Part shown: one piece after another, positions 23,562 to 63,477 of the stretch
How the letters are laid out: every line of letters begins with the position of its first letter
How positions within the stretch are numbered: position 1 is the stretch's first letter
From: Bacteroidales bacterium
Lineage (GTDB): Bacteria; Bacteroidota; Bacteroidia; Bacteroidales; UBA3663
Assembly (NCBI GenBank): GCA_017548545.1
Contig: JAFYZW010000114.1
Span: 1-64,000 of the forward strand
Length of the DNA: 64,000 nt
Direction: 5' to 3'
The notes under the pieces: model-generated
What the model was told of the DNA's origin: nothing
The model's database searches: none
Seen by the model: only the letters and a program-made list of their open reading frames with translations
Made by a program: the position numbers and the translations under genes

Positions 23562-24641
23562 TTATTCGGCCGAGATGGCCCCATGAAGGATGCGCCTGCA
23601 CTCGTCGAAGTTTGAGCTGACGAGCGCCTTGTAGATGGCATCCTTGAAGCGAGCATTCTGCTGCTGGAGTTCGATTACTTGACGCTGCAGGTCATTGATC
23701 TGATCATCATAGCTATAGTTGTCATACGTGTCGTAATTACCACCTTGTTGGGTATAGCCTTGCTGTCCATAACCCTGTGATGGATAGTTTTGCTGACCTT
23801 GTTGAACATAATTCTGCTGGTTGTAACCTTGCTGATTATAACCCTGCTGAACATAATTCTGCTGGTTATAACCCTGCTGATTATAGCTCTGCTGATTATT
23901 ACCCTGTTGACCATAATTCTGTTGGTTATATCCCTGTTGGTTGTAACCCTGCTGGTTATAGCCCTGCTGGTTATAGCCCTGTTGCCCATTGCCACCAATC
24001 TCGCGAATGTCGCTGAATGCACTCCAGTAGTTGGCATTGCGATAACTGGCAAAAGAACCGTAGGGAACATAGAGCGTGAAGGGCACCTTGCCACTGTCGT
24101 TCAGCGGGAAAGCTGAAGAAGCGACAGTGGGTGGCGTGACACTGTTGACGTAGAGTGTCTTCAGCGCTTCGCAGTCCTCGAAAGCTTCTATGCCGATGCT
24201 CACCACGCTGCGTGGCAGGGTGAGTTCGGTAAGCGAACTGCATTCCTCAAAAGCCTCATCACCGATGGTCTTGATGGCATCAGGAAGGTTGACCGTGGTC
24301 AGGTTACGACACTTCTGAAAGGCTGCATTACCAATGTAGGTCACAGTGGCCGGAACAGTGACAGACGAGAGGCCACGGCAATGCACGAAAGCAGATTTGC
24401 CGATTCCCACAACTGTGTAGCGATTACCTTCGGCATCAGTCACCTGAGTGGGTATCACGAGACTTCCGCTCACATAGGAGGCATTACGCTCGGTATAGTA
24501 CATGCGCGACACTTCGCACTCGTTGTTCGAGAGGACATTGAAGTAGAGGACACGTCCATCGGACGTGGTGGCCTGAAAGTCGTAGGCCATAGCCGACATA
24601 ACAGCCGAAAAGGCAAAAAGCAGAGTGAATAGTTTTTTCAT
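23562..24641 (-). CDS. secreted LRR_5 (BspA-like) protein with YNQQG repeat tail
   Basis: The product has 359 aa: a signal peptide (to about Ala19), four or so BspA-type leucine-rich repeats at about 75-165 (for example [20 protein letters not shown]), a short beta region ending at FSDIREIGG, then a low-complexity domain at about 218-300 built from GYNQQ-type pentamers with NYGQQ/NYVQQ variants. A Tyr/Asp spacer and a C-terminal helix with coiled-coil character (about 315-345, [18 protein letters not shown]) follow. The Q/N/Y/G-rich domain is prion-like in composition. BspA-type LRRs usually mediate surface binding. A promoter lies 43 nt upstream. The role of the tail is unknown. Confidence 0.88.
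23760..23990 (-). repeat. 15-bp minisatellite encoding GYNQQ pentamers
   Basis: About 15 in-frame copies of a 15-bp unit (on the + strand variants of CTGCTGGTTATAGCC) code for the YNQQG domain. The unit is a multiple of three, so slippage would change domain length without breaking the frame. Confidence 0.85.
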
Positions 24642-48812: not shown

Positions 48813-49197
48813 CAATCGCCGCATGTCCCCCAACGAACGTAAGAGGACATTATTCTTTAGAACCATATCCTCCAGCGGACGTTAGGGGACATTCTACAAT
48901 CGGAGCATATCCTTCAGCGGACGTTAGGGGACATCCCACAATCGGAGTATATCCTTCCACGTACGTTAGAAGACATCCCACAATCGGAGCATGTCCTTCA
49001 GCGTACGTTAGAAGACATCCCACAATCGGAGCATGTCCTTCAGCGTACGTTAGAAGACATCCCACAATCGGAGCATGTCCTTCAGCGTACGTTGGGGGAC
49101 ATCCCACAATCGGAGCATATCCTTCAGCGTACGTTAGCGGACATACAACAATCGAGGCATATCCTCCAGCGACCATTGGGGGACATGCCTCGATCGG
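48813..49197. repeat. tandem array 2: about nine 42-bp units
   Basis: Units beginning CAATCGG start at 48813, about 48855, then 48897, 48939, 48981, 49023, 49065, 49107, 49149 and a partial one at 49191; the period is exactly 42 bp. The core is GAGCATGTCCTTCAGCGTAC followed by GTTAGAAGACATCCCA; the central units are nearly identical and the edges diverge. GACAT...ATGTC in each unit can pair. Because 42 is a multiple of 3, the - strand has an open frame of 14-residue repeats (TYAEGHAPIVGCLL), probably by chance. 49198-49382 holds no recognisable gene. Confidence 0.88.
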
Positions 49198-49382: not shown

Positions 49383-51321
49383 ATCGAGTAGGAGGTAAAC
49401 GCTAATCGTAGGCGTTTATCTCCTACTTTCACGTTTACCGACCTCTCACACCACCGCACGTGCCGTTCGGCATACGGCGGTTCCTTATTATTGCACGCGG
49501 ACTATTAAACGATGATAGTCCATTAAGCATGGCCAGCCTTGCTTTTGAAGAGCCTCTTTGCCTATGGCACGGTCCAGTATTCCACTGCCCGCGACCCTCC
49601 AATAGCCTTTGCTGCTGTTTCCCCATTCATAGGCTTGCCATTCCGCTATGCCGCACTTGATTAGGTTCCTGATTCTCGTGCGGCATTTCTTCCAGGCCTT
49701 CCATATGCACATGCGATAACGGCGGCGTAGCCATTTGTCAATCTCTTTCAGCCGTTTCTGCATGTCTGCCAGCTGAAAGTAGGTTATCCATCCGCGTATA
49801 ATCTGGTGCATCTTCTCCTTGCGGATCTGATACCCCATTCCATTGCTGCGCATGGTGGCCTCCTTCAGCTTCTTCTTCAGTTTCGCGTATGTCTTGGAAT
49901 GGACGGTCAATCGGCACTCCCCTCGCATGATGCGGAAGGAATAGCCGAGGTATTTCATCCCAATGATACTCCCCACTTCGGTCTTTTCGCGATTGACTTT
50001 CAGATGTAGTCTCCTTTCGATAAAGTCCGTAATGGTGCTACTGACGCGTTGGGCCGCACGTTCGCTCTTGCAGAAGATGATGCTGTCGTCCGCATAGCGG
50101 ACAAAGCGCAGACCTCTCCGTTCGAGTTCCTTGTCAAGCTCGTTCAACATGATATTGCTGAGCAATGGACTCAAGGGACCACCTTGCGGTGTGCCCTCCT
50201 CCGTCGGCTGCAATACTCCGTGTACCATAACGCCACTGCGGAGATACTTGTGTATCAGCGACACTACACGTCCGTCCCTGATTGTACGGCCGAGCACCTC
50301 TATCAGTTTGCTTTGATTCACGGTGTCGAAGAAGCGTTCCAGGTCGATGCCCACGGCATACCTGTAGCCTTCGGTTACGTTCTTCCTTGCTTCACGCAGG
50401 GCATCGTGTGCTCCTCGCTTGGGGCGGAAGCCATAACTCGTCCGACTGAATCTCGGCTCGTAGATTCCTGAGAGGACTTGGCTGATTGCCTGCTGCACCA
50501 TACGGTCTATGACCGTGGGGATGCCGAGCTGACGTTTCTTGCCGTTATCCTTCGGGATTTCTACGCGCCTTACTGGATTGGGGACATACGTCCCTTCCAT
50601 GAGGGATTGTCTCAGGTCTTCGATATGGGATTGACACCAGGTGTATAGTTCCTTGACATCCATGCCATCGACCCCTCCCTTGCCTTTGTTGCCGACTACT
50701 TGCTTGTAGGCGGCCCTGAGGTTGGCAATGTCGATTATCCGCTCCATGAGGCCTTGTCCCTCAAAGTGCATTTCCACAAGTCCCCCTTCGACTATCTCCA
50801 TGTAGGTCTGCGCTCCCACGTACCCTTCGGATGCCGTCCTGTCTCTTTGTGGGAAGCCATGCGCATTCGCGGATGTATTCTGCATTCTATCCTTCATAGA
50901 GTAATCTTTTGTCGGTAAACTTGTTTCAATAAGGTTCGGCCCTTCCCCTCTTTCCGGGTACTATGGCCTCTGCTGACTTCTCACGGCAAGCGTTACTCCA
51001 AGGCTCCGAGTGTCGTGCGACTTGTCGGTCTGCCCCGTCCGTGAGACCTCCCCAGTTAAGAACATATTCTTTCCATCTCATCTCCGCATGATTTACCTTT
51101 GCAAATTCCGGATAACTATCGGGCTTTGTCTTCTTGTGCAGACTCACCGCACTTGCACCGGCCTTATATCATGTTCTTGTTCATCAGAGCAGATGTTTGC
51201 CGCCGACTTCCTTCAGATTCCGCGTCGCCACGGACACCCTTGCCTTTGGCTGTAGCCTTCCCGTTATCAGGGCGGCTTCGGGACTTGCACCCGTTAGAAT
51301 ATGCCCATGCTGGGCGAACAC
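49383..51321 (-). mobile_element. group II intron with maturase ORF
   Basis: On the - strand the element begins with GTGTTCGCCCAGCATGGGC (51321 downward), followed by the domain-I-like GGGTGCAAGTCCCG and the segment CAAGGGTGTCCGTGGCGACG...GAATCTGAAGGAAG. The reverse-transcriptase ORF occupies domain IV. A domain-V-like hairpin (about 49483-49451, ACCGCCGTATGCCGAACGGC...GCGGTGG) and a domain-VI-like hairpin with an unpaired A (about 49427-49388, GTAGGAGATAAACGC...GCGTTTACCTCCTAC) follow, and the intron ends near 49382-49384. The 5' junction lies directly behind a terminator-like stem-loop. Boundaries are by consensus, plus or minus a few bases. Confidence 0.85.
49488..50897 (-). CDS. ltrA: group II intron reverse transcriptase/maturase
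   Basis: The product has 469 aa. RT motifs run from about residue 100 (RRVEIPKDNGKKRQLGIPTV) through GFRPKRGAHDAL and GIDLERFFDTVN to the catalytic RYADD (Tyr268-Asp271 core), followed by the thumb and the maturase (X) domain (about 350-430, MRSNGMGYQIRKEKMHQIIRGWITYFQLADM). No HNH endonuclease domain follows; the protein ends shortly after the maturase region. It promotes splicing and reverse transcription of the intron that carries it. The frame is intact, so the intron may be active. Confidence 0.95.
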   Translation of the reverse strand: MKDRMQNTSANAHGFPQRDRTASEGYVGAQTYMEIVEGGLVEMHFEGQGLMERIIDIANLRAAYKQVVGNKGKGGVDGMDVKELYTWCQSHIEDLRQSLMEGTYVPNPVRRVEIPKDNGKKRQLGIPTVIDRMVQQAISQVLSGIYEPRFSRTSYGFRPKRGAHDALREARKNVTEGYRYAVGIDLERFFDTVNQSKLIEVLGRTIRDGRVVSLIHKYLRSGVMVHGVLQPTEEGTPQGGPLSPLLSNIMLNELDKELERRGLRFVRYADDSIIFCKSERAAQRVSSTITDFIERRLHLKVNREKTEVGSIIGMKYLGYSFRIMRGECRLTVHSKTYAKLKKKLKEATMRSNGMGYQIRKEKMHQIIRGWITYFQLADMQKRLKEIDKWLRRRYRMCIWKAWKKCRTRIRNLIKCGIAEWQAYEWGNSSKGYWRVAGSGILDRAIGKEALQKQGWPCLMDYHRLIVRVQ

Positions 51322-54384: not shown

Positions 54385-54903
54385 TTATCTGTTTGGATAG
54401 AGTTTGTGATGGTATTCTTTTGCGGCACTATAGACCTCCTGCATCTTGTCTTCCTTGATTCGCTTCAGTTGAATAGATCTTACAACGCCTGCAAATTCGA
54501 CTGTTATAACTAATATGTCACTCTTTACTTCGAAACGTCCGGTATCCGTATCAAATCTTGTAGGATCGTCCCACTGATAGTTTGTGGTCTGAGTGACCAC
54601 ATCGCCATTCACCGACCATTTGCCGGTATCCGAAAAATAATACTCCGAATTGTTAGTCTCCGTGTCGGTGACAATATCCACGGCTATAAACGAACCATCC
54701 TTCTTGTACCAATAATAGAAAATATCCTCTAAGTTTGGCTCAGTTTCCTGCAAGCTCGCATCCATATACACCGGTAACACTTCCGACACCCACGTACCCA
54801 CGATGGCTGGATCCTTGTCCTCATCGTCGTCCTTGCACGATACAAGCGACAAGCTTGAGAACACCACAAAAAGAGTAAAAATTACTTTAAAAAATGTCTT
54901 CAT
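54385..54903 (-). CDS. lipocalin-like lipoprotein, 172 aa
   Basis: The lipobox is SLVSC (Cys23). The mature protein begins with a run of Asp/Glu/Lys and then AIVGTWVSEVLPVY, typical of the first strand of lipocalin-like Bacteroidales lipoproteins. Further strands (KKDGSFIAVDIV, GKWSVNGDVVTQTTNY, GRFEVKSDILVITVEFAG) fit a small barrel. It starts 40 bp after the TPR/HTH regulator gene on the same strand and could be co-transcribed with it. Ligand unknown. Confidence 0.78.
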   Translation of the reverse strand: MKTFFKVIFTLFVVFSSLSLVSCKDDDEDKDPAIVGTWVSEVLPVYMDASLQETEPNLEDIFYYWYKKDGSFIAVDIVTDTETNNSEYYFSDTGKWSVNGDVVTQTTNYQWDDPTRFDTDTGRFEVKSDILVITVEFAGVVRSIQLKRIKEDKMQEVYSAAKEYHHKLYPNR

Positions 54904-54943
54904 AATGATTGATATTTTAAAAAAGATGGATAGGGGGACATCG

Positions 54944-56761
54944 TCACATCAAAGAGGCAACTTCCTCCTTATACGGCGACTCGGATTGAAGTATCGTCTT
55001 CCTTATGCGTTGTATTCGTTTCCTGATTGCAGGCGGATTATCATAATGCATGATGAGGCAAATGGCTACTGTAGAAAAGCCCGAAACCTTGAGCCGGTAT
55101 AGCTGCAGCTCCATTTCATTCAAGCCGATTTCCGCCGATTTAACCTTCTTCATTGCGTTGTCGAAGTTCGCATCGATTATGCTGTCAAGCTTTTTTTGTT
55201 GGGAGGGTTCAACAAAACCATCTATAAGCATTCGCACCTTTTTATAGATTTGCTTTTGCTCGTCTATTTTTCCCTGAACACGATAGAAACTCTCGCACAG
55301 GTCGTTCAGTTCGATAAATCTTTTGGCATAGAGTTGCCTGACCTGTTCAAGATGTTTTCTCTCCCTGTCCTCCTGTTCTGCCGAGATGAGGTCAATTCGA
55401 TGCTCGAACTCGGCATACGCATGCTTGATGTCTGTATCTGTACGTCTGATGTTATTATCCAGTTCCGAAGATGTCTCTTCCACTTTATTCTGCAGTGCTG
55501 AGATCTTTTCCTTCTGCTCCATTAGCACCTGTTCCAGAATGGATGCTTTCTCAACATAGGAATTGATTGTTTGTTGTTGCTCCTTCCTGCTGCTATAAAA
55601 ATATCGAAAGGCAGCCATCAACAATAAAACAACGATGCATGCCACAAGACCAGATATGTACCGATATTGGGAATATTGATATTCGGCAAGTTCCTTCTGC
55701 TGCTTCTCGAAATCGCGCTGATAATCGGAAACTGATTTGGAAAAGATGGATGTTATAACTTCATTCTGCGCATCTATTCTTTTGCTTTTATATGCGAGTG
55801 CAGAATCCAGATTACCTTTCATTTCTGAAATCGAACTGAGTTTCTCATAATAGAAAACAGTTTGTTCGGGTGCTATAATGGCATCTTTTGCTCGCTGCAT
55901 ATAAACATCTGCGCTGTCGGACATCCCCTTTACTTGAAATAGGCAAGCTTTATTCATAAGGTCAACAGATTGACGAATGGGCTTGTTGAATAAGCCAAAT
56001 AGACTATCAGCCAAATGATATCGTTCAGAAGTCATGCATAGTTCAATATATGATGTGAGGCATGACTGTACAATTGGATCAGCTGCCGTAAGGGAATTAA
56101 TCACCTGACGAAACCAATATTCTGCAGAATCATGAACCAATCGAACTGAATACGTTTTCGCCATTTCAGCTTTAGCAAGTAAAGCTTCACGTAAATCGCC
56201 AGATTTCCGAGCATATTCCAAATTTTTACGAGCATACATTATAGCATCTTTGCTGTAGGTATCGTAACTAAGGGTGAAAAGATTACCATAAATACGAGTT
56301 AGATAATAGTCTTCATTTATATCTAATGCCAGGCTCTCGGCTTGGCGATAAGCCACAAAGGCAGCGCCATAATCTCTGGCATTACGGAAGATGGCGGCAT
56401 GATAGAAATGTGCCAGCATCTTCTCCCGTTTGCTGCCATGCTCATCATAGTAACGCACGGCGAGGAGGATGAGACTGTCGCTGGTGTCATCGATGTAGTT
56501 CTTGTCATTCGTCTGCGTCTTGAGTAGGGCATAGCGCGCCATCTGACGCTCGCCTTCGATGCTCACAGCGCCAGCGTCCAGAAGGCTATCGAGGCGAACA
56601 AGTTCGATGAGGGCAGAATCGGGACGCGGCACGACCACCTGCTCAATGCGGTCGAGCGAAGAGCTGACCTCAGAATTCCCGTGCTTGCAAGACACAAACA
56701 ACTGTCCTACGATTAGCGGAAGGATGACAGCAAAGAGATATTTCAATGTGTTGTTACTCAT
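54944..56761 (-). CDS. TPR / membrane / coiled-coil / HTH regulator, copy 2 of LRR-TPR pair
   Basis: The product has 605 aa: a lipoprotein-type signal (FVSC, Cys25), helical TPR-like repeats over about 30-350 (MLAHFYHAAIFRNARDYGAA, LADSLFGLFNK), one membrane helix at about 366-385 (GLVACIVVLLLMAAFRYF), a coiled coil (about 388-470) and a C-terminal LuxR-like helix-turn-helix (about 551-594, MELQLYRLKVSGFSTVAICL). The topology suggests a periplasmic TPR sensor with a cytosolic DNA-binding end, a one-component transmembrane regulator. It follows a secreted LRR gene by 76 bp; the same pair occurs again at 58592-61670. The role is inferred; the HTH is degenerate. Confidence 0.82.
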   Translation of the reverse strand: MSNNTLKYLFAVILPLIVGQLFVSCKHGNSEVSSSLDRIEQVVVPRPDSALIELVRLDSLLDAGAVSIEGERQMARYALLKTQTNDKNYIDDTSDSLILLAVRYYDEHGSKREKMLAHFYHAAIFRNARDYGAAFVAYRQAESLALDINEDYYLTRIYGNLFTLSYDTYSKDAIMYARKNLEYARKSGDLREALLAKAEMAKTYSVRLVHDSAEYWFRQVINSLTAADPIVQSCLTSYIELCMTSERYHLADSLFGLFNKPIRQSVDLMNKACLFQVKGMSDSADVYMQRAKDAIIAPEQTVFYYEKLSSISEMKGNLDSALAYKSKRIDAQNEVITSIFSKSVSDYQRDFEKQQKELAEYQYSQYRYISGLVACIVVLLLMAAFRYFYSSRKEQQQTINSYVEKASILEQVLMEQKEKISALQNKVEETSSELDNNIRRTDTDIKHAYAEFEHRIDLISAEQEDRERKHLEQVRQLYAKRFIELNDLCESFYRVQGKIDEQKQIYKKVRMLIDGFVEPSQQKKLDSIIDANFDNAMKKVKSAEIGLNEMELQLYRLKVSGFSTVAICLIMHYDNPPAIRKRIQRIRKTILQSESPYKEEVASLM

Positions 56762-57060
56762 ATTTATAAAACGAACAAATCGGTCGTTTATTGTATGCCT
56801 TTGTGTTCAGCGGATGGAGCGAGAAAGAATTCTCCCCTCATTTCACCATAATCTTCACACTCTTATCGCCTATCCTGACGATGGCGGTTGTACCAGATGG
56901 CAAGTGGTTGACAATGCTGGCCGCGTCATTTTGATCAGTAGCTGAGCCAATAAACTTCCCATCAATGGAATAGATGTTGATGCGGTCGGATGGCGATGAG
57001 TATTCGAGCGTTTCGATAGATTCATCATTCAAGGGAACGATGTCCTTGAAGTTCTTCCAA
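56513..57060 (-). repeat. junction repeat, copy 1
   Basis: The LRR 3' end, the intergenic 76 bp and the TPR gene 5' end are nearly identical to 60068-60615 (over 90 percent around the junction), while both genes diverge outside this block. Confidence 0.8.
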
Positions 57061-58253
57061 GGCACAGCCGCTTTGTAGGCATCGACTGAACCTGCGGGCA
57101 CATGAAGTGTCGCATAATCGTTAGGGCTACGGTTGAAAGCATCACTATGTGTCGAAGGAACATTTTCGGCATAGCAATAGACATCTAGAAGCGTCAAGCA
57201 TAATCCGAATGCCCCTTCTCCAATTGATGTCACGCCACCGGGGATGGTTATGGAGGTCAGGTTGTAACAGAAAAGGAAAGTGTTAGGTTCAATCGTCGTC
57301 AAGCTGTCGGGGATATTGACGGAGGTTAGGCCGAGACAGAAGTTGAAAGCAGATTCTCCTATCGTGGTCACACTGTTGGGAATGGTGATGGAGGTTAGGC
57401 TGGCACATTCATTAAAAGCATAACTTCCAATTGATTTCACGCAGTTGCCAAGGTCGATAGAGGTTATCCTACAGCGTGAGAAAGCACGATCTCCAATCTT
57501 CTCCACATTATTGGGCATCGTGATGGAGGTCAGGCTGGTACACTCTTCGAAAACGGAGACACCAATTGAAGTCACGCTATTGCCAAGGTCAATAGATTCC
57601 AGGCTTTGACAATGGAAGAAAGCACGATCTCCAATCTCCTCCAAGCTATTGGGAATGGTAATGGACGTCAGGCTGGTACACTCTTCGAAAACGGAGACAC
57701 CAATTGAAATCAGGCTGTTGCCAAGGTCAATAGATGCCAGGCTTTGACAATGGAAGAAAGCTTGACCTCCAATCTTCTCCACATTATTGGGCATCGTGAT
57801 GGTGGTCAGGCTGGTACACTCTTCGAAAACGGAGACACCAATTGAAGTCACGCTATTTGGAATGGCAATCGATGTCAAACTGCCGCAATTGTAGAATGCA
57901 CCGTATTCTATCGATGTCACACTGTTGGGGATGGTGACCGAGGTCAGGTTGGGACAATACCAGAAAGAACCCTGTCTAATTAAACTCACGCTATTAGGGA
58001 TGGTGACCGAAGTCAGTTCGATACTGCTCTTGAAAGCCCACTCTGCTATGGATGTTACGCTGTAGTCAACTCCATCATAATTCACTGTGGCTGGAATATC
58101 CACACTTCCGGAATACATGTTGGGGTTGAACGTTACTTCGGCTTCCTTGATATCTTCCATCAAATTATAATAGATGCCATCGATTTCAACAGCATCGGCA
58201 AATGCTACCATAGGTAACAAAACTGTCAGAAGGGGAAGGATGTACTTTTTCAT
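56838..58253 (-). CDS. secreted BspA-type LRR protein, copy 2 of LRR-TPR pair
   Basis: The product has 471 aa with a signal peptide (to about Ala19). A short N-terminal beta domain (VEIDGIYYNLMEDIKEAEVT) is followed by about 13 BspA/LRR_5 repeats of 23 residues (for example SLTSITIPNSVTTIGESAFN; about 70-375), a closing segment and a C-terminal sorting-like tail (about 430-471, INIYSIDGKFIGSA...VRIGDKSVKIMVK). Three copies of a 138-bp unit inside the LRR region show recent expansion. BspA-type LRRs bind host or bacterial surfaces. It is co-transcribed with the TPR/HTH regulator. Confidence 0.9.
   Translation of the reverse strand: MKKYILPLLTVLLPMVAFADAVEIDGIYYNLMEDIKEAEVTFNPNMYSGSVDIPATVNYDGVDYSVTSIAEWAFKSSIELTSVTIPNSVSLIRQGSFWYCPNLTSVTIPNSVTSIEYGAFYNCGSLTSIAIPNSVTSIGVSVFEECTSLTTITMPNNVEKIGGQAFFHCQSLASIDLGNSLISIGVSVFEECTSLTSITIPNSLEEIGDRAFFHCQSLESIDLGNSVTSIGVSVFEECTSLTSITMPNNVEKIGDRAFSRCRITSIDLGNCVKSIGSYAFNECASLTSITIPNSVTTIGESAFNFCLGLTSVNIPDSLTTIEPNTFLFCYNLTSITIPGGVTSIGEGAFGLCLTLLDVYCYAENVPSTHSDAFNRSPNDYATLHVPAGSVDAYKAAVPWKNFKDIVPLNDESIETLEYSSPSDRINIYSIDGKFIGSATDQNDAASIVNHLPSGTTAIVRIGDKSVKIMVK
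57531..57944 (-). repeat. 138-bp tandem repeat inside the LRR gene
   Basis: Near-identical units begin at 57531, 57669 and 57807 (CAGGCTGGTACACTCTTCGA on the + strand). Each encodes 46 residues, that is two LRRs, so copy number can change in frame. The third copy diverges toward its end. Confidence 0.85.
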
Positions 58254-58275
58254 AATAGAATTTTTTATTTCGCTG

Positions 58276-58306
58276 CAAATATATGTATTATTTTTGTTTC
58301 TTCAAT
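58276..58306 (-). promoter_or_regulatory. promoter of the LRR-TPR pair, copy 2
   Basis: On the - strand ATTG (58306-58303) and TATATTTG (58283-58276) are 19 nt apart; the ATG is at 58253. Further upstream (58444-58451) is another -7-like TAACTTTG, in a block with GGGGACATTTTAAAAAAAT (58473-58491) that is also found upstream of the other LRR gene (61794-61812). The rest of the 58254-58591 gap shows no gene. Confidence 0.5.
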
Positions 58307-58591
58307 CTTATTGGCCTGTTTTTTTCACTATTTTCGCGTCATAAGTGCAAATCGTCTTCGCGAAATCGATTTCCAAATTTGTTGAAGAGAAAGGGCTGAC
58401 GTTTTAAGTGAATTGGTTATCACTTTAATTTATTTTTCGAGTGCAAAGTTACAAATAATTTTTTAAATAACAGGGGACATTTTAAAAAAATGAGTTTACT
58501 GATTCATTTTCATAAGCCGTTGAAAAACAAACAAAAAAGATACGAGCAAATTATAAATTTTCAACGGACGAAAAATGAGGTGGGGACATTG

Positions 58592-60316
58592 CTACATAAG
58601 TGAGGCAAGTTCTGTAGCGAAAGGAGATTTTGATTCAAGTATCTTCTTTCTCAAGCGTTGCTGACGCTTCTGCAAAGCGTCTTGTGATTCGATATGCATA
58701 AGCATTCGAATGGTTCGAGCGGAAAGACCAGCCACCTTGTACTTGTAGAGTTGAAGTTCCTTGTCGGAAAGTTCAAACTCTGGAGACTTGACTTTCTCCA
58801 TTGCATGGTCGAAGTTCTCATCGATGAGATGATCCAGTTCTTCCTGTTGGGTTGCCTGGGCAAAGGCATTTATGCGGTCACATACATCTTTATATATCTC
58901 TCGTTGAATGCCTTGTTCGTTTTGGAACTGGTAGTATTTTTTATAAAGGGACTCCAGTTCGTGGAAACTTTTCGCAAAGAGAGTTTTTATCTGATTTCTA
59001 TACGTTTCCTCTTTGGCAAGTCGCTCGGAATCCATAGCTTCTGCTTTGTGCTGCAAAGTGGCAATGGCATCGGTATTCTCAAGAAGGGTTCGCTGCATAT
59101 CGGACACGTTTTCCATATAGGTCTCAATGATGCGCTGCCTTTCCTTCTTCTTTTTTATTGTGTATGCTATTCCACCACCAATCAGTAATAAAGATAATGC
59201 AGAGGCAAGAATTGTGCGACGCTTGTATTCGGCATATCGATATTCGGCAAGTTCCTTCTGCTGGAGTTCGTAGTTGCTCTGAATATTTGAAACGGAGGCC
59301 GTTAAAAGGTTACGCACAATGGAATCTTGTAAAGCTGCTCGATGAAATAATGTTTGGCTCGCTTCATAATACTCCTCTCTATTATTCTGCAATGTGGCAA
59401 TGGTTGCGAGTTCGAAAACTTTATCTGTAGCTGTCGAATTGAGTCTTGCTGCAAACTGCATCATGCTGTCGGCCTCATTTTGTTGACCCTTCATTTCGCA
59501 GACGATAGCTCGACTCATATAATCAACAGGGTATCTCGGGTTATGCTGCAAGTGAATCAATGAGTCAGCCCTCTGATACTGATGTTGAGATACACATTGA
59601 TAAATATAATAAGGGAGAACTTCCTGCCTGAGTACTGCGTTAGTATCGGAATGCAAGAGATAGTCGAAAATGCTCTCTGCCTCTGGATACCGTTTCTGAT
59701 AATTCAAGGCTATACCCTTCAGCATCAATGCCCAATTTATTCGTGCTGTATCTCCAGTGGCTTGATGACACTGGTATGATAAATCAGCATAATATAAACT
59801 CTCTCCACTATACAACTCGCGGCAGATACAAGAGACATTGCCGTAAGATAATCCAGCGTAGGTGTTATCACCATAGTCGGTAGCCAACTTAGCTGCAAGG
59901 AGGAAGGAAGAATAGGCCTGGCTGAAGTTTGCGGCATTGCGGAAGATGGCGCCATGATAATAGTGCGATAGCATTTGTTCCCGCTTGCTTCCATGCTCAT
60001 CATAGTAGCGGACAGCGCGAAGGATGAGGCTGTCGTTGGTGTCGTCAATCCAGTTTTTATCATGCGTCTGCGTCTTGAGCAGAGCATAACGCGCCATCTG
60101 ACGCTCGCCTTCGATGCTCACAGCGCCAGCGTCCAGAAGGCTATCGAGGCGAACAAGTTCGATGAGGGCAGAATCGGGACGCGGCACGACCACCTGCTCG
60201 ATGCGGTCGAGCAAAGCGCCGACCTCAGGATTCCCGTGCTTGCAGGCCACAAACAACTGTCCTAAGATCAGAGGAAGGAATACAGTAAATAGATGTTTCA
60301 ATGTGTTGTTACTCAT
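58592..60316 (-). CDS. TPR / membrane / coiled-coil / HTH regulator, copy 1 of LRR-TPR pair
   Basis: The product has 574 aa with the same plan as the 605-aa paralogue: lipobox FVAC (Cys25), TPR-like helices (about 30-350, LNYQKRYPEAESIFDYLLHS), a membrane helix (about 368-388, LASALSLLLIGGGIAYTI), a coiled coil and a C-terminal LuxR-like HTH (about 512-560, KELQLYKYKVAGLSARTIRM). The first 100 residues are nearly identical to the paralogue, while the sensor and coiled-coil parts are strongly diverged, as expected for different ligands. It follows its LRR gene by 76 bp. Confidence 0.82.
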   Translation of the reverse strand: MSNNTLKHLFTVFLPLILGQLFVACKHGNPEVGALLDRIEQVVVPRPDSALIELVRLDSLLDAGAVSIEGERQMARYALLKTQTHDKNWIDDTNDSLILRAVRYYDEHGSKREQMLSHYYHGAIFRNAANFSQAYSSFLLAAKLATDYGDNTYAGLSYGNVSCICRELYSGESLYYADLSYQCHQATGDTARINWALMLKGIALNYQKRYPEAESIFDYLLHSDTNAVLRQEVLPYYIYQCVSQHQYQRADSLIHLQHNPRYPVDYMSRAIVCEMKGQQNEADSMMQFAARLNSTATDKVFELATIATLQNNREEYYEASQTLFHRAALQDSIVRNLLTASVSNIQSNYELQQKELAEYRYAEYKRRTILASALSLLLIGGGIAYTIKKKKERQRIIETYMENVSDMQRTLLENTDAIATLQHKAEAMDSERLAKEETYRNQIKTLFAKSFHELESLYKKYYQFQNEQGIQREIYKDVCDRINAFAQATQQEELDHLIDENFDHAMEKVKSPEFELSDKELQLYKYKVAGLSARTIRMLMHIESQDALQKRQQRLRKKILESKSPFATELASLM

Positions 60317-60615
60317 ATTTATAAAACGAACAAATCGGTCGTTTATTGTATGCCTTTGTGTTCAGCGGATGGAGCGAGAAAGAATTCTCCCCTCATTTCA
60401 CCATAATCTTCACACTCTTCCCGCCCTTCTTGACGATGGTGCTGGTGCCGGATGGGAGATTGTTTATGATCCTGGCAGCTTCGCTTTGATCAGCAGCCGA
60501 GCCGATGAGTTTGCCATCGATGGAATAGATGTTGATGCGGTCGGATGGCGATGAGTATTCGAGCGTTTCGATAGATTCATCATTCAAGGGAACGATTTCC
60601 TTGAAGTTCTTCCAG
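60068..60615 (-). repeat. junction repeat, copy 2
   Basis: Partner of 56513-57060; see that entry. The 76-bp intergenic sequence (TATTTATAAAACGAACAAAT, CGGTCGTTTATTGTATGCC) is identical in both copies. Confidence 0.8.
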
Positions 60616-61670
60616 GGCTCCTTGCTGCTGTAGGCCTGCAGGGCAGAGGCTGGCACGTGGAGAGTAGCGCTGGCGATGTCGGTGTTTGCGAAGGGCTCAC
60701 GCCAGATATTCGGGACTGCTTCGGCAAGACAATAAACGTCGGTCAGTGCGGAGCATTGGGCGAAGGCTTTGTCAGAAATGCTCCACACACCACTGCCGAT
60801 GGTTAGGATGGTGAGATATGGGCAGTTGTTGAAGGCACCTCTTCCGATCTGCCCCACGCTGTTGGGGATGGTGACGGAGGTGAGGCCACACACCGTGAAA
60901 GCATTATCGCCTATGTAGGTTACGCCGTCGGGAATAGTGACTGAAGCCAGGGCAGGACAGACGGCGAAAGCACATTCTTCGATGGAAGTTAGGCTGCTGG
61001 GCAGAGAGACGGTGGCGAGGTGTCCGCAGCCGAAGAAAGTATATTGTCCGATTTTGGCCACGCCTTCGGGGATGGTGATGGAAGTGAGGCTTGAGCATTG
61101 GCAGAAGGAAAAGCTACCGATGGATGTTACACCATCGGGGATAGTGATGGAGGCCAAGGCGTTACAGCCGTAGAAAGCATAATCTTCGATTGATTTCAGG
61201 TTGTCGGGGATGGTGACGGAAATGAGGCTTGTGCATTGGTAGAAGCAAGAATTGCCTATCGATTTCACACTGCTGGGCCAGACGATGGAAACAAGGCCAG
61301 TGCAGCAGTAGAAGGGTTGAAGTCCGATTTTGGTCACGCTGTCGGGGAGATCGAGGTGAGTGAGGCTGGAAATTTCGGCGAAAGCTCGCTCTCCGATGGA
61401 TGTCACAGTGTTGGGGATGGAGACTGCTGTCAATTCATTGCAGTCCCAGAAGGCATAAGATCCAATCGATGTCACCTTGTATTCGGTCTCGTCATAAATA
61501 ACAACGGAGGAAATATCTACACTGCCGGAATAACGGTCGGGGTTCCAAGCGACCTCGGCCTCCTTGGTTTCTGCGTTCAGATTGTAGTAGATGCCATCAA
61601 TCTCCACGGGTTCGGCCAGTGTCACAATCGGCAACAATAGGGCTGAAAGAGAAAGTAAGAGTTTTTTCAT
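60393..61670 (-). CDS. secreted BspA-type LRR protein, copy 1 of LRR-TPR pair
   Basis: The product has 425 aa with a signal peptide (to about Ala19) and an N-terminal domain (VEIDGIYYNLNAETKEAEVA) like its paralogue. About 11 LRR_5 repeats follow (about 70-330, SLTSITIPEGVAKIGQYTFF) and then the shared C-terminal tail (YSIDGKLIGSAADQSEAARI...VKIMVK). The LRR units are more diverse than in the 471-aa paralogue and show no recent DNA-level duplication. It is co-transcribed with the 574-aa TPR/HTH regulator. Confidence 0.9.
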   Translation of the reverse strand: MKKLLLSLSALLLPIVTLAEPVEIDGIYYNLNAETKEAEVAWNPDRYSGSVDISSVVIYDETEYKVTSIGSYAFWDCNELTAVSIPNTVTSIGERAFAEISSLTHLDLPDSVTKIGLQPFYCCTGLVSIVWPSSVKSIGNSCFYQCTSLISVTIPDNLKSIEDYAFYGCNALASITIPDGVTSIGSFSFCQCSSLTSITIPEGVAKIGQYTFFGCGHLATVSLPSSLTSIEECAFAVCPALASVTIPDGVTYIGDNAFTVCGLTSVTIPNSVGQIGRGAFNNCPYLTILTIGSGVWSISDKAFAQCSALTDVYCLAEAVPNIWREPFANTDIASATLHVPASALQAYSSKEPWKNFKEIVPLNDESIETLEYSSPSDRINIYSIDGKLIGSAADQSEAARIINNLPSGTSTIVKKGGKSVKIMVK

Positions 61671-61899
61671 AATTGAAAGTATTTGGTCAGTTTATTTCTT
61701 TACTCGTTTGCGGATTATTTGCTTACCGCGTATAGGGTAGCCATTATTATTTATATTTGCGCTGCAAAGTTACGAAATTTATTTTAAATAAGAGGGGACA
61801 TTTTAAAAAAATAAAAACAAAAAATAAAGAACGATAAGCAACTGATTAACAGCACGAAGAAAAGGCCAAAAAGGTTTTTTGTTTTAAGTCGTCTTTGGT

Positions 61900-61932
61900 G
61901 ATAGGGGGGACATCGTCACATCAAAGAGGCAA
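61900..61932 (-). pseudogene. remnant of a third TPR/HTH regulator gene (3' end)
   Basis: GATAGGGGGGACATCGTCAC and ATCAAAGAGGCAA match the 3' end of the 605-aa regulator gene (54928-54960) over 32 bp with one inserted G. They code on the - strand for ASLM, the TGA stop and the downstream flank. Nothing of the gene body is left; the ATPase gene lies 50 bp further. The remaining gap 61671-61986 holds the GGGGACATTTT block and a -7-like TAACTTTG (61772-61765), the likely promoter region of the LRR gene. Confidence 0.6.
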
Positions 61933-61986
61933 TCTGGCCTCGAAAACTACGGGGAAATGTTTACTTCATGTGATGTATTCTCGATA

Positions 61987-63327
61987 TTATAAGAACATAG
62001 ACATAAACACTGGCACTAATAAAGTGTCACCTTCCTTACGCATATCCTTTGTATAGACGAGATAGCTATGTAAAATTCTCTCAGAAAACTTCTCTTTGAA
62101 CTTGTCAAGCGATGTATGTGTCTTGTACCCTGATGATTTTACCTCAATTGGGCAAATTTTACTGCCGCGTGACAATAGGAAGTCTATTTCATAATTGCGC
62201 CTGCCAGTTTCCGTTGGCCAAGTGTAATAGAACAATTCGTTTCCTGCGGTCTTCAACATTTGTGCCACAACATTTTCATACACGTATCCAAGATCAGCCG
62301 ATAGCTTGTCATTGAGCAGCTTCTGGTAAATGATATTTTCTGTGATCTCTTTATCTCTAAAGGCAAGCGTTATGAATAGGCCAGTATCATTCATGAACAT
62401 CTTATATTGGCTGAAGGAAGCATGCAAGGGGAAACCAACATTTGGATCACTGGCATGACGAGAAAAAAGCACAACTTGAGATTCTTCCATCTCCTGAAGA
62501 AGTTCCTCTATTCTATCTCTTTTCCCATTTTCGATGACACTGGAGACTTGGTACCTTGATGCATTGCTATTCAATTGTCCTGGTATAGCATAAAACAATC
62601 TTGTTGCCTTGCCAGTAGGATCAATCTTTCGGAAATCATCGGCATAGAGTTCCAGAATATCCCGTTTCACCAGATCGACTGCCTCCAGATTGTTACTTTT
62701 AAGATATTCGTTTACAGCCTGGGGCATTCCTCCGACAAGCATGTAAAGACGAAAATCGCGAAGCAGTGTCCTTGTAACACCATCACCCAAAGTTCTTTTT
62801 GCCAAGAAAGCTTCATGCAGAAGGGATGTGGTCACTTCATCACCCAATGCCCAACGGAATTCTTCATAATCCATTGGGAAAAGAGTTAGTCTTGTCTCTT
62901 CGCTCGGTATGCGAATGTCTTGAATATTCTTCTTAATCGAAATAAGGGAACCGGTTTCAATATAGTCATACCGATGGTCTTTCACCAGTTTCCTAATTGC
63001 CTGTCGAGCCAAAGGGCAGTCCTGGATTTCATCAAAGATGATAACGGACTTTCGAGGAGTAAGACGTTTATGATAATGAAACTGAAGTTGGAAAAGCAGC
63101 TGGTCAAGATCAGAAATGTCTTCGAACAATGCCTTGACTTCCTGTCGGGCTTCTGTGAAATCGATTAGAATATAAGAATCATATTCTCGTTTGGCAAACT
63201 CTTCAACAATTGTAGATTTTCCTACACGACGAGCTCCCTTGATTAGCAAGGCGGTACTTCCATCCCGTTCCTGTTTCCAACGAAGCATTTTGTCATACAA
63301 CTTTCGTCTAAATATTTGTCCTTCCAT
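61987..63327 (-). CDS. AAA ATPase with DUF4143-type C-terminal domain
   Basis: The product has 446 aa. The AAA_14 domain shows Walker A KGARRVGKST (30-39), Walker B VIIFDEIQ (95-102) and a sensor-like IETGSLISI. The C-terminal half carries the DUF4143 region (about 210-390), ending in YEIDFLLSRGSKICPIEVKSS, a PD-(D/E)XK-nuclease-like E...ID...EVK pattern. Such ATPases are frequent, often horizontally moved genes of unknown role in Bacteroidales. It stands alone, has a TATCTTTG box (63355-63348) 21 nt before the ATG, and is preceded by a repeated element. Confidence 0.9.
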   Translation of the reverse strand: MEGQIFRRKLYDKMLRWKQERDGSTALLIKGARRVGKSTIVEEFAKREYDSYILIDFTEARQEVKALFEDISDLDQLLFQLQFHYHKRLTPRKSVIIFDEIQDCPLARQAIRKLVKDHRYDYIETGSLISIKKNIQDIRIPSEETRLTLFPMDYEEFRWALGDEVTTSLLHEAFLAKRTLGDGVTRTLLRDFRLYMLVGGMPQAVNEYLKSNNLEAVDLVKRDILELYADDFRKIDPTGKATRLFYAIPGQLNSNASRYQVSSVIENGKRDRIEELLQEMEESQVVLFSRHASDPNVGFPLHASFSQYKMFMNDTGLFITLAFRDKEITENIIYQKLLNDKLSADLGYVYENVVAQMLKTAGNELFYYTWPTETGRRNYEIDFLLSRGSKICPIEVKSSGYKTHTSLDKFKEKFSERILHSYLVYTKDMRKEGDTLLVPVFMSMFL

Positions 63328-63347: not shown

Positions 63348-63477
63348 CAAAGATAATGTTTTTGCCGAAAATCGCATAATTTTTTTCACTAAAAATGCCG
63401 AAAATCGCACTTTTTATGCTATTTTGCCGAAAATCGCATAATTTTTTTCACTAAAAATGCCGAAAATCGCACTTTTT
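63348..63477 (-). promoter_or_regulatory. -7 box and 62-bp direct repeat upstream of the ATPase gene
   Basis: TATCTTTG (- strand, 63355-63348) has no -33 box at normal spacing. Instead, a 57-bp sequence occurs twice (63359-63415 and 63421-63477, offset 62 bp). Each copy holds TGCCGAAAATCGCA twice, at 63363, 63396, 63425 and 63458, a candidate operator. Confidence 0.6.

Follow-up and report, generated by a model that had tools for sequence, protein, structure and literature searches.

What is the unit of a locus in which the same two genes, one for a secreted leucine-rich-repeat (LRR) protein and one for a putative membrane-bound regulator, stand twice in a row? The question is raised by a stretch of 64,000 nucleotides (hereafter the window; positions 1 to 64,000 of contig JAFYZW010000114.1, our C104, in assembly GCA_017548545.1) from a 3.33-Mb metagenome-assembled genome (MAG), 85% complete, of a Bacteroidales bacterium that is closest, among named relatives, to MAGs of rumen Bacteroidales. 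The array occupies positions 54944-61670 of the minus strand in the gene order LRR2-reg2-LRR1-reg1. The two tandem LRR-regulator pairs described in a first-pass annotation of the sequence were recovered as open reading frames, all on the minus strand (Table 1), and the gap between the LRR gene and the regulator gene is 76 bp in both pairs. Reading function from sequence, we consider it reasonably probable that reg1 and reg2 are kinase-less membrane regulators whose operator travels with their DNA-binding end.

The anatomy of the regulators largely bears out the architecture that had been claimed for them, that is, a lipoprotein-type signal, a tetratricopeptide-repeat (TPR)-like domain, a single membrane helix and a coiled coil. 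Both are predicted lipoproteins, with a cysteine (Cys25) behind a hydrophobic stretch that is invariant in 12 homologues, and each has one hydrophobic segment (approximately residues 365-391). The AlphaFold2 model consists of a helical-repeat domain, one long helix (342-463) that spans the membrane segment and the coiled coil, and a compact helical C-terminus. No Pfam TPR match was obtained for reg1 or reg2 in a single-sequence scan; profile matches to solved TPR proteins (E 7e-8) and the Foldseek matches of the full-length model identified the domain as TPR. The nearest structures in the latter search were the NprR/Rap peptide sensors (5dbk, 4gpk, and 8rsv; E 2.4e-5), matched via the TPR domain, and the Parabacteroides TPR protein 4r7s was also among the matches. 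When reg1 and reg2 were scanned against Pfam and NCBIfam, nothing significant and no kinase domain was returned, in agreement with the proposal of a regulator that acts without a kinase.

In the window, the word ATGTCCCC follows the stop codons of the regulators and recurs in the promoters of the LRR genes. Twelve regulator loci of the genus whose 3' end is intact and is followed by a promoter were tested, and all 12 show the same layout: site 1 begins 0-6 bp behind the stop codon, site 2 lies 96-112 bp further on, and a -7 box, TAnCTTTG, is found 28-29 bp after the start of site 2. The heptamer itself is TGTCCCC in the window and TGTCCAC, TGTCTAA, TGTC[A/C]GA, or TG[T/A][A/C]CCA at other loci, and it is kept or nearly kept inside each locus while varying among loci. 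The bare ATGTCCCC word was rejected as evidence because it is unspecific and common in the repeat arrays of this genus; therefore, only the version with a fixed spacing from site to -7 box was used. In 15 genomes (44.7 Mb), which made up both the genus-level and the family-level set, the pattern TGTCCCC-N20-23-TAnnTTTG gave 10 matches and its reversed control gave 0. Eight of these 10 matches are found either immediately behind a regulator homologue or at an LRR-regulator pair, a family-adjacent placement with a chance of ~5e-33 if a uniform model is assumed and the ancestry common to the loci is disregarded. With up to one mismatch allowed, TTTTAAAATGTCCCC matched the whole genome at the two LRR promoters only. 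When the partners of 9 non-redundant loci were permuted, the match between sites was as good in 31 of 100,000 shuffles, a test that loses force since TGTCCCC is common to several of the loci.

The variation of the heptamer was found to follow the C-terminal class of the regulators. Sensor bodies fall into two classes, A and B (22-32% identity between and 57-89% within classes), and three C-terminal classes, I, II, and III, were distinguished among the closer homologues (18-30% identity between classes). The combinations A-I, B-I, A-II, and B-III all exist and have the N-terminal part in common. Class III C-termini carry TGTC[A/C]GA sites, and class I C-termini mostly carry TGTCCCC. Short regulators of 301 aa, without the TPR body and the membrane helix, occur in two species (L052, 4126-5031; L053, 1676-2581), and these short forms keep both TGTCCCC sites downstream.

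The limit of the permutation test and several further points weigh against an operator that travels with a DNA-binding end. All 15 genomes are MAGs, and they belong to one genus. Within the window, reg1 is followed by site 1 only, and a downstream promoter of such form is absent. The class III pattern, TGTCCGA-N-TAnnTTTG, gave 10 genome-wide matches versus 7 for its control and is uninformative alone; 2 of the 10 matches were the expected ones. Distant homologues outside the genus showed no matched heptamer at 28-29 bp. On the output side, the LRR tails scored 13.7-14.1 bits (LRR2, 14.1) against the type A sorting domain of the type IX secretion system (T9SS), below the cut-off of 23. Furthermore, the LuxR-like helix-turn-helix (HTH) of the first-pass annotation stood only in part. 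The C-terminal domain was modelled as confidently helical (predicted local distance difference test score, 90.6), and its structural neighbours included FixJ, SdiA, and VpsT (probability 0.72-0.84), but these were intermixed with 14-3-3 proteins, no hit had E <0.001, Pfam gave no HTH match for reg1 or reg2, and a C-terminal profile run against PDB sequences returned noise without an HTH match. The HTH match is thus weak, and the modelled C-terminus is compatible with a LuxR-like HTH.

These same data bear on the alternative that the C-terminus does not bind DNA and that the heptamer serves transcript-end or leader processing or an unrelated factor. The missing Pfam HTH match and the weak Foldseek scores would agree with this, as would the hairpin found behind site 1 in several loci, and site 1 could indeed be a transcript-end or hairpin-linked feature and not an operator. 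However, site 2 lies at a fixed distance from the -7 box and matches site 1 locus by locus, the heptamer changes along with the C-terminal class from one locus to another, and the more distant Parabacteroides homologues have an HTH-like stretch at their C-terminal end. We therefore regard a C-terminus that does not bind DNA as quite improbable.

Under the preferred reading of an operator that travels with the DNA-binding end, the regulator would be a predicted inner-membrane one-component transcription factor, and the locus would be a tandem array of a regulatory cassette. The N-terminal lipid anchor and the periplasmic TPR domain would sense a peptide or protein ligand, a ligand class that we infer from the fold only, and the single membrane helix and the coiled coil would relay the signal to the HTH-like domain, which would bind the locus-specific heptamer at both sites. 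Site 2 is placed at the usual spot of an activator overlapping the -33 region, from which the next secreted-protein gene, in the window that of a surface LRR protein, would be switched on. The spacings between site 1 and site 2 cluster at ~96-98 and 108-112 bp, approximately one helical turn apart, a difference that would fit cooperative binding. The LRR gene and the following regulator probably share a transcript, and the operons would be chained, with reg2 facing the promoter of the LRR1-reg1 operon. If the lipid anchor were held in the outer membrane, the regulator could span the envelope. With the operator directly beside the DNA-binding end, a recombination event in the conserved N-terminal region would move the HTH and the operator jointly and would thereby swap sensors or partners. 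The more specific proposal, in which the regulator 3' end forms one physical piece with the operator pair that it recognizes and with the output promoter while sensor bodies and outputs are exchanged at the N-terminal seam, is tentative, and we hold it to be possible rather than probable.

A recombinant regulator was found in a sister MAG. The regulators of the window are 44-47% identical overall and 86% identical across the first ~130 residues; at the DNA level, their N-terminal parts are 88% identical over 300 bp, with a repeat offset of exactly 3,555 bp. The sister locus, L012, has a single LRR-regulator pair, and in its regulator all informative bases equal those of reg2 before, and those of reg1 after, an identical tract of ~110 bp; reg2 and reg1, recombined by a single crossover, give the L012 regulator exactly. 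Since the L012 regulator switches from reg2 to reg1 in this way, one crossover that gains or loses one 3,555-bp unit separates L012 from the window. The earlier statement that the pair is the unit of duplication was thus supported, as L012 differs by exactly one unit. The LRR2 protein stands beside the reg2 body in the window and beside the reg1 body in L012, which speaks against an obligate match of LRR protein and sensor body.

The third-copy scar, also noted in the first-pass annotation, proved to be real yet composite, comprising a regulator tail and the end of a nuclease-like gene. A stretch of 28 bp at 61905-61932, upstream of LRR2, is identical to the reg1 3' end (54933-54960), and these direct repeats flank the array. 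A second Exo_endo_phos copy on contig C44 of the same genome has an unfused ending and is followed by an LRR gene without a regulator or a site. The scar as a nuclease-like gene end alone, a possibility suggested by the complete gene in L012, was ruled out by this unfused ending, on account of which the regulator tail is taken to be fused to the nuclease-like gene in the window. The C44 locus (L055) has the neighbours seen at L012 (a uvrC-like gene, a nuclease-like gene, and an LRR gene) and no regulator. The regulator block lies elsewhere, in the window, and appears to have moved, or else the MAG mixes strains.

A second alternative is that the array is mainly a device for surface variation, in which LRR genes are reshuffled via the conserved regulator N-termini and LRR tails. 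The clean L012 recombinant, the 28-bp flanking repeats, and the GC content of the N-terminal regulator parts (53% in reg1 and reg2, versus 41-43% in the remainder) are in line with this idea. The tails of LRR1 and LRR2 also agree with each other in a short segment where that of L012 differs, a pattern resembling gene conversion. On the other hand, just two states of the locus are known, no recombinase, invertible segment, or store of silent cassettes was found at the locus, and homologous recombination between duplicates suffices without selection for variation. We consider a variation cassette hardly likely.

A further alternative is a dedicated module, with the LRR protein as the cognate ligand or effector of the TPR domain of its own regulator and the pair inherited as a signalling unit; for the module idea, the first-pass annotation had set the frequency of LRR neighbours beforehand as a refuting test. 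Neighbouring genes could be seen for approximately 25 homologues (17 from the genus and 8 from elsewhere in the order), and an LRR_5 gene adjoins 5 of them, in three independent contexts: both pairs of the window, the L012 pair, the G006 locus L050 with its truncated regulator, and G244 (L107). In the last of these (L107, 422-4039), which belongs to another family of the order, the regulator homologue is followed by a DUF3244-like remnant, recognized by eye, and then by the LRR_5 gene. Of the ~20 LRR_5 loci in the source genome, only the window array has an adjacent regulator homologue, and LRR genes with the same tail, such as that on C44, are common in the genus without regulator and site. 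The 76-bp gap and the near-identical junction of both pairs, together with the LRR_5 genes found downstream of a homologue in another family and after the truncated homologue in G006, would speak for a dedicated pairing. However, the homologues mostly have no LRR neighbour, and L012 joins the LRR2 protein to the reg1 body, so that the narrow module idea failed its test and is, in our view, unlikely.

A broader module of regulator, neighbouring secreted gene, and paired operator gained support instead. Other homologues precede small secreted proteins, some with weak matches to DUF3244 or to T9SS tails, and in both Parabacteroides distasonis records compared the TPR gene is followed by one annotated as DUF3244. 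Given these varied neighbours, the general rule is a regulator and a neighbouring secreted gene, with LRR proteins as one of several outputs. In P. distasonis, direct repeats with GAACAAA lie immediately behind the stop codon of the homologous TPR gene and ahead of the DUF3244 gene (L112, 5725-5827; L113, 5656-5784), which suggests a similar layout with another motif. A CTGATnnTCA-N5-TTnC-like sequence was also seen by eye to recur downstream of distant regulator homologues (L077-L085).

The LRR proteins themselves were assigned to LRR_5 unambiguously (LRR1, E 1e-93 and 310 bits; LRR2, E 4e-137 and 451 bits; cut-off, 27.7 bits). They are 50% identical to each other with near-identical tails, and the LRR2-type tail is conserved across 8 LRR genes of the genus. 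The T9SS component SprA is present, and 7 sorting domains in the genome score above the cut-off, suggesting that T9SS is the likely export route of the LRR proteins. At 23562-24641, the window encodes a further secreted LRR_5 protein, whose tail is repetitive and rich in YNQQG.

Table 1. Coordinates of the array genes, the paired sites, and the recombination-related tracts in the window.
Feature	Position	Strand	Description
LRR2	60393..61670	-	Secreted BspA-type LRR_5 protein, 425 aa, with a ~75-aa conserved C-terminal tail
reg2	58592..60316	-	Lipoprotein signal, TPR, membrane helix, coiled coil, HTH-like (predicted); body class B, C-terminal class I
LRR1	56838..58253	-	Secreted LRR_5 protein, 471 aa
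reg1	54944..56761	-	Built like reg2 (predicted); body class A, C-terminal class I
Small putative lipoprotein gene	54385..54903	-	Follows the last regulator in the window and in L012
Site 1 ATGTCCCC	61906..61913	-	Upstream of LRR2
Site 2 ATGTCCCC	61794..61801	-	In the LRR2 promoter
-7 box TAACTTTG	61765..61772	-	LRR2 promoter
Site 1	58582..58589	-	Directly after the reg2 stop codon
Site 2	58473..58480	-	In the LRR1 promoter
-7 box TAACTTTG	58444..58451	-	LRR1 promoter
Site 1	54934..54941	-	Behind the reg1 stop codon; site 2 and the -7 box are absent here
Identical tract in reg2	60090..60199	-	Contains the L012 crossover
Partner identical tract in reg1	56535..56644	-	3,555 bp away
Third-regulator tail (..IASLM-stop) and first operator copy	61905..61933	-	Joined to the nuclease-like gene at ATTGCC
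Last codons of Exo_endo_phos gene	61921..61959	-	Truncated in the window, complete in L012 (3509-4396)

Other features of the window were observed around the array. An AAA_14/DUF4143 gene lies at 61987-63327, and two identical 56-bp copies with a 62-bp spacing are found upstream of it, at 63360-63477. At 48823-49186, an array of ~42-bp repeats with CATGTCCCCCAACG-type palindromic units adjoins a gene for a group II intron-type reverse transcriptase (49488-50897); similar arrays are present in L010, L019/L050, L035, L047, L059, and L060.

As regards novelty, no description of the LRR partner, the reassortment, or the matched operator pair was found in the open-access literature searched, and no target site for TPR-membrane-HTH proteins was found described there. 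Such proteins occur across the Bacteroidales and are mostly annotated as TPR only. The matched sites, which vary with the DNA-binding class, provide a direct handle on what these regulators may bind and control. If our reading is true, a DNA-recognition code could be read from genomes alone, and the family would offer sensor and output parts ready for interchange. Simple recombination would then also account for the gain and loss of dedicated control by surface-protein genes. Under the more specific, tentative proposal, the family would amount to a natural plug-in signalling cassette in rumen Bacteroidales.

Among known systems, the protein architecture is of a known, uncharacterised kind near the BT3442 family. 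BT_3442 belongs to the MACPF cluster of B. thetaiotaomicron and is described as a TPR multidomain protein beside duplicated lipoprotein genes (PMC2954219). The NF053779 model of this family matched 8 of 12 aligned homologues, over the full length for the distant ones (best E 1.6e-45), while reg1 and reg2 gave no match up to E 10 and the best homologue reached 155.9 bits, short of the cut-off of 940. The likeness lies in a TPR protein beside secreted or lipoprotein genes, with DUF3244 directly downstream in P. distasonis; the difference is that the partner here is LRR_5 and that the matched heptamer pair was found only in the genus of the window.

Regulators of the SusR type in Bacteroides combine a periplasmic Reg_prop/Y_Y_Y sensor, a membrane helix, and a cytoplasmic DNA-binding domain in one protein. 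Like them, the window regulators are predicted to sense and bind DNA in a single protein without a kinase, and they adjoin cell-surface genes, but they have a putative TPR sensor, a single predicted helix after a lipoprotein signal, and a putative HTH of another type. The RRNPP sensors (NprR and Rap) resemble the window regulators in their TPR fold but are cytoplasmic, with ~15% sequence identity to them, and the HTH of NprR is N-terminal. Finally, the LRR proteins share LRR_5 repeats, a signal peptide, and a C-terminal sorting-like tail with other BspA-type proteins, and they differ from these in that their genes share a putative operon and promoter sites with a regulator.

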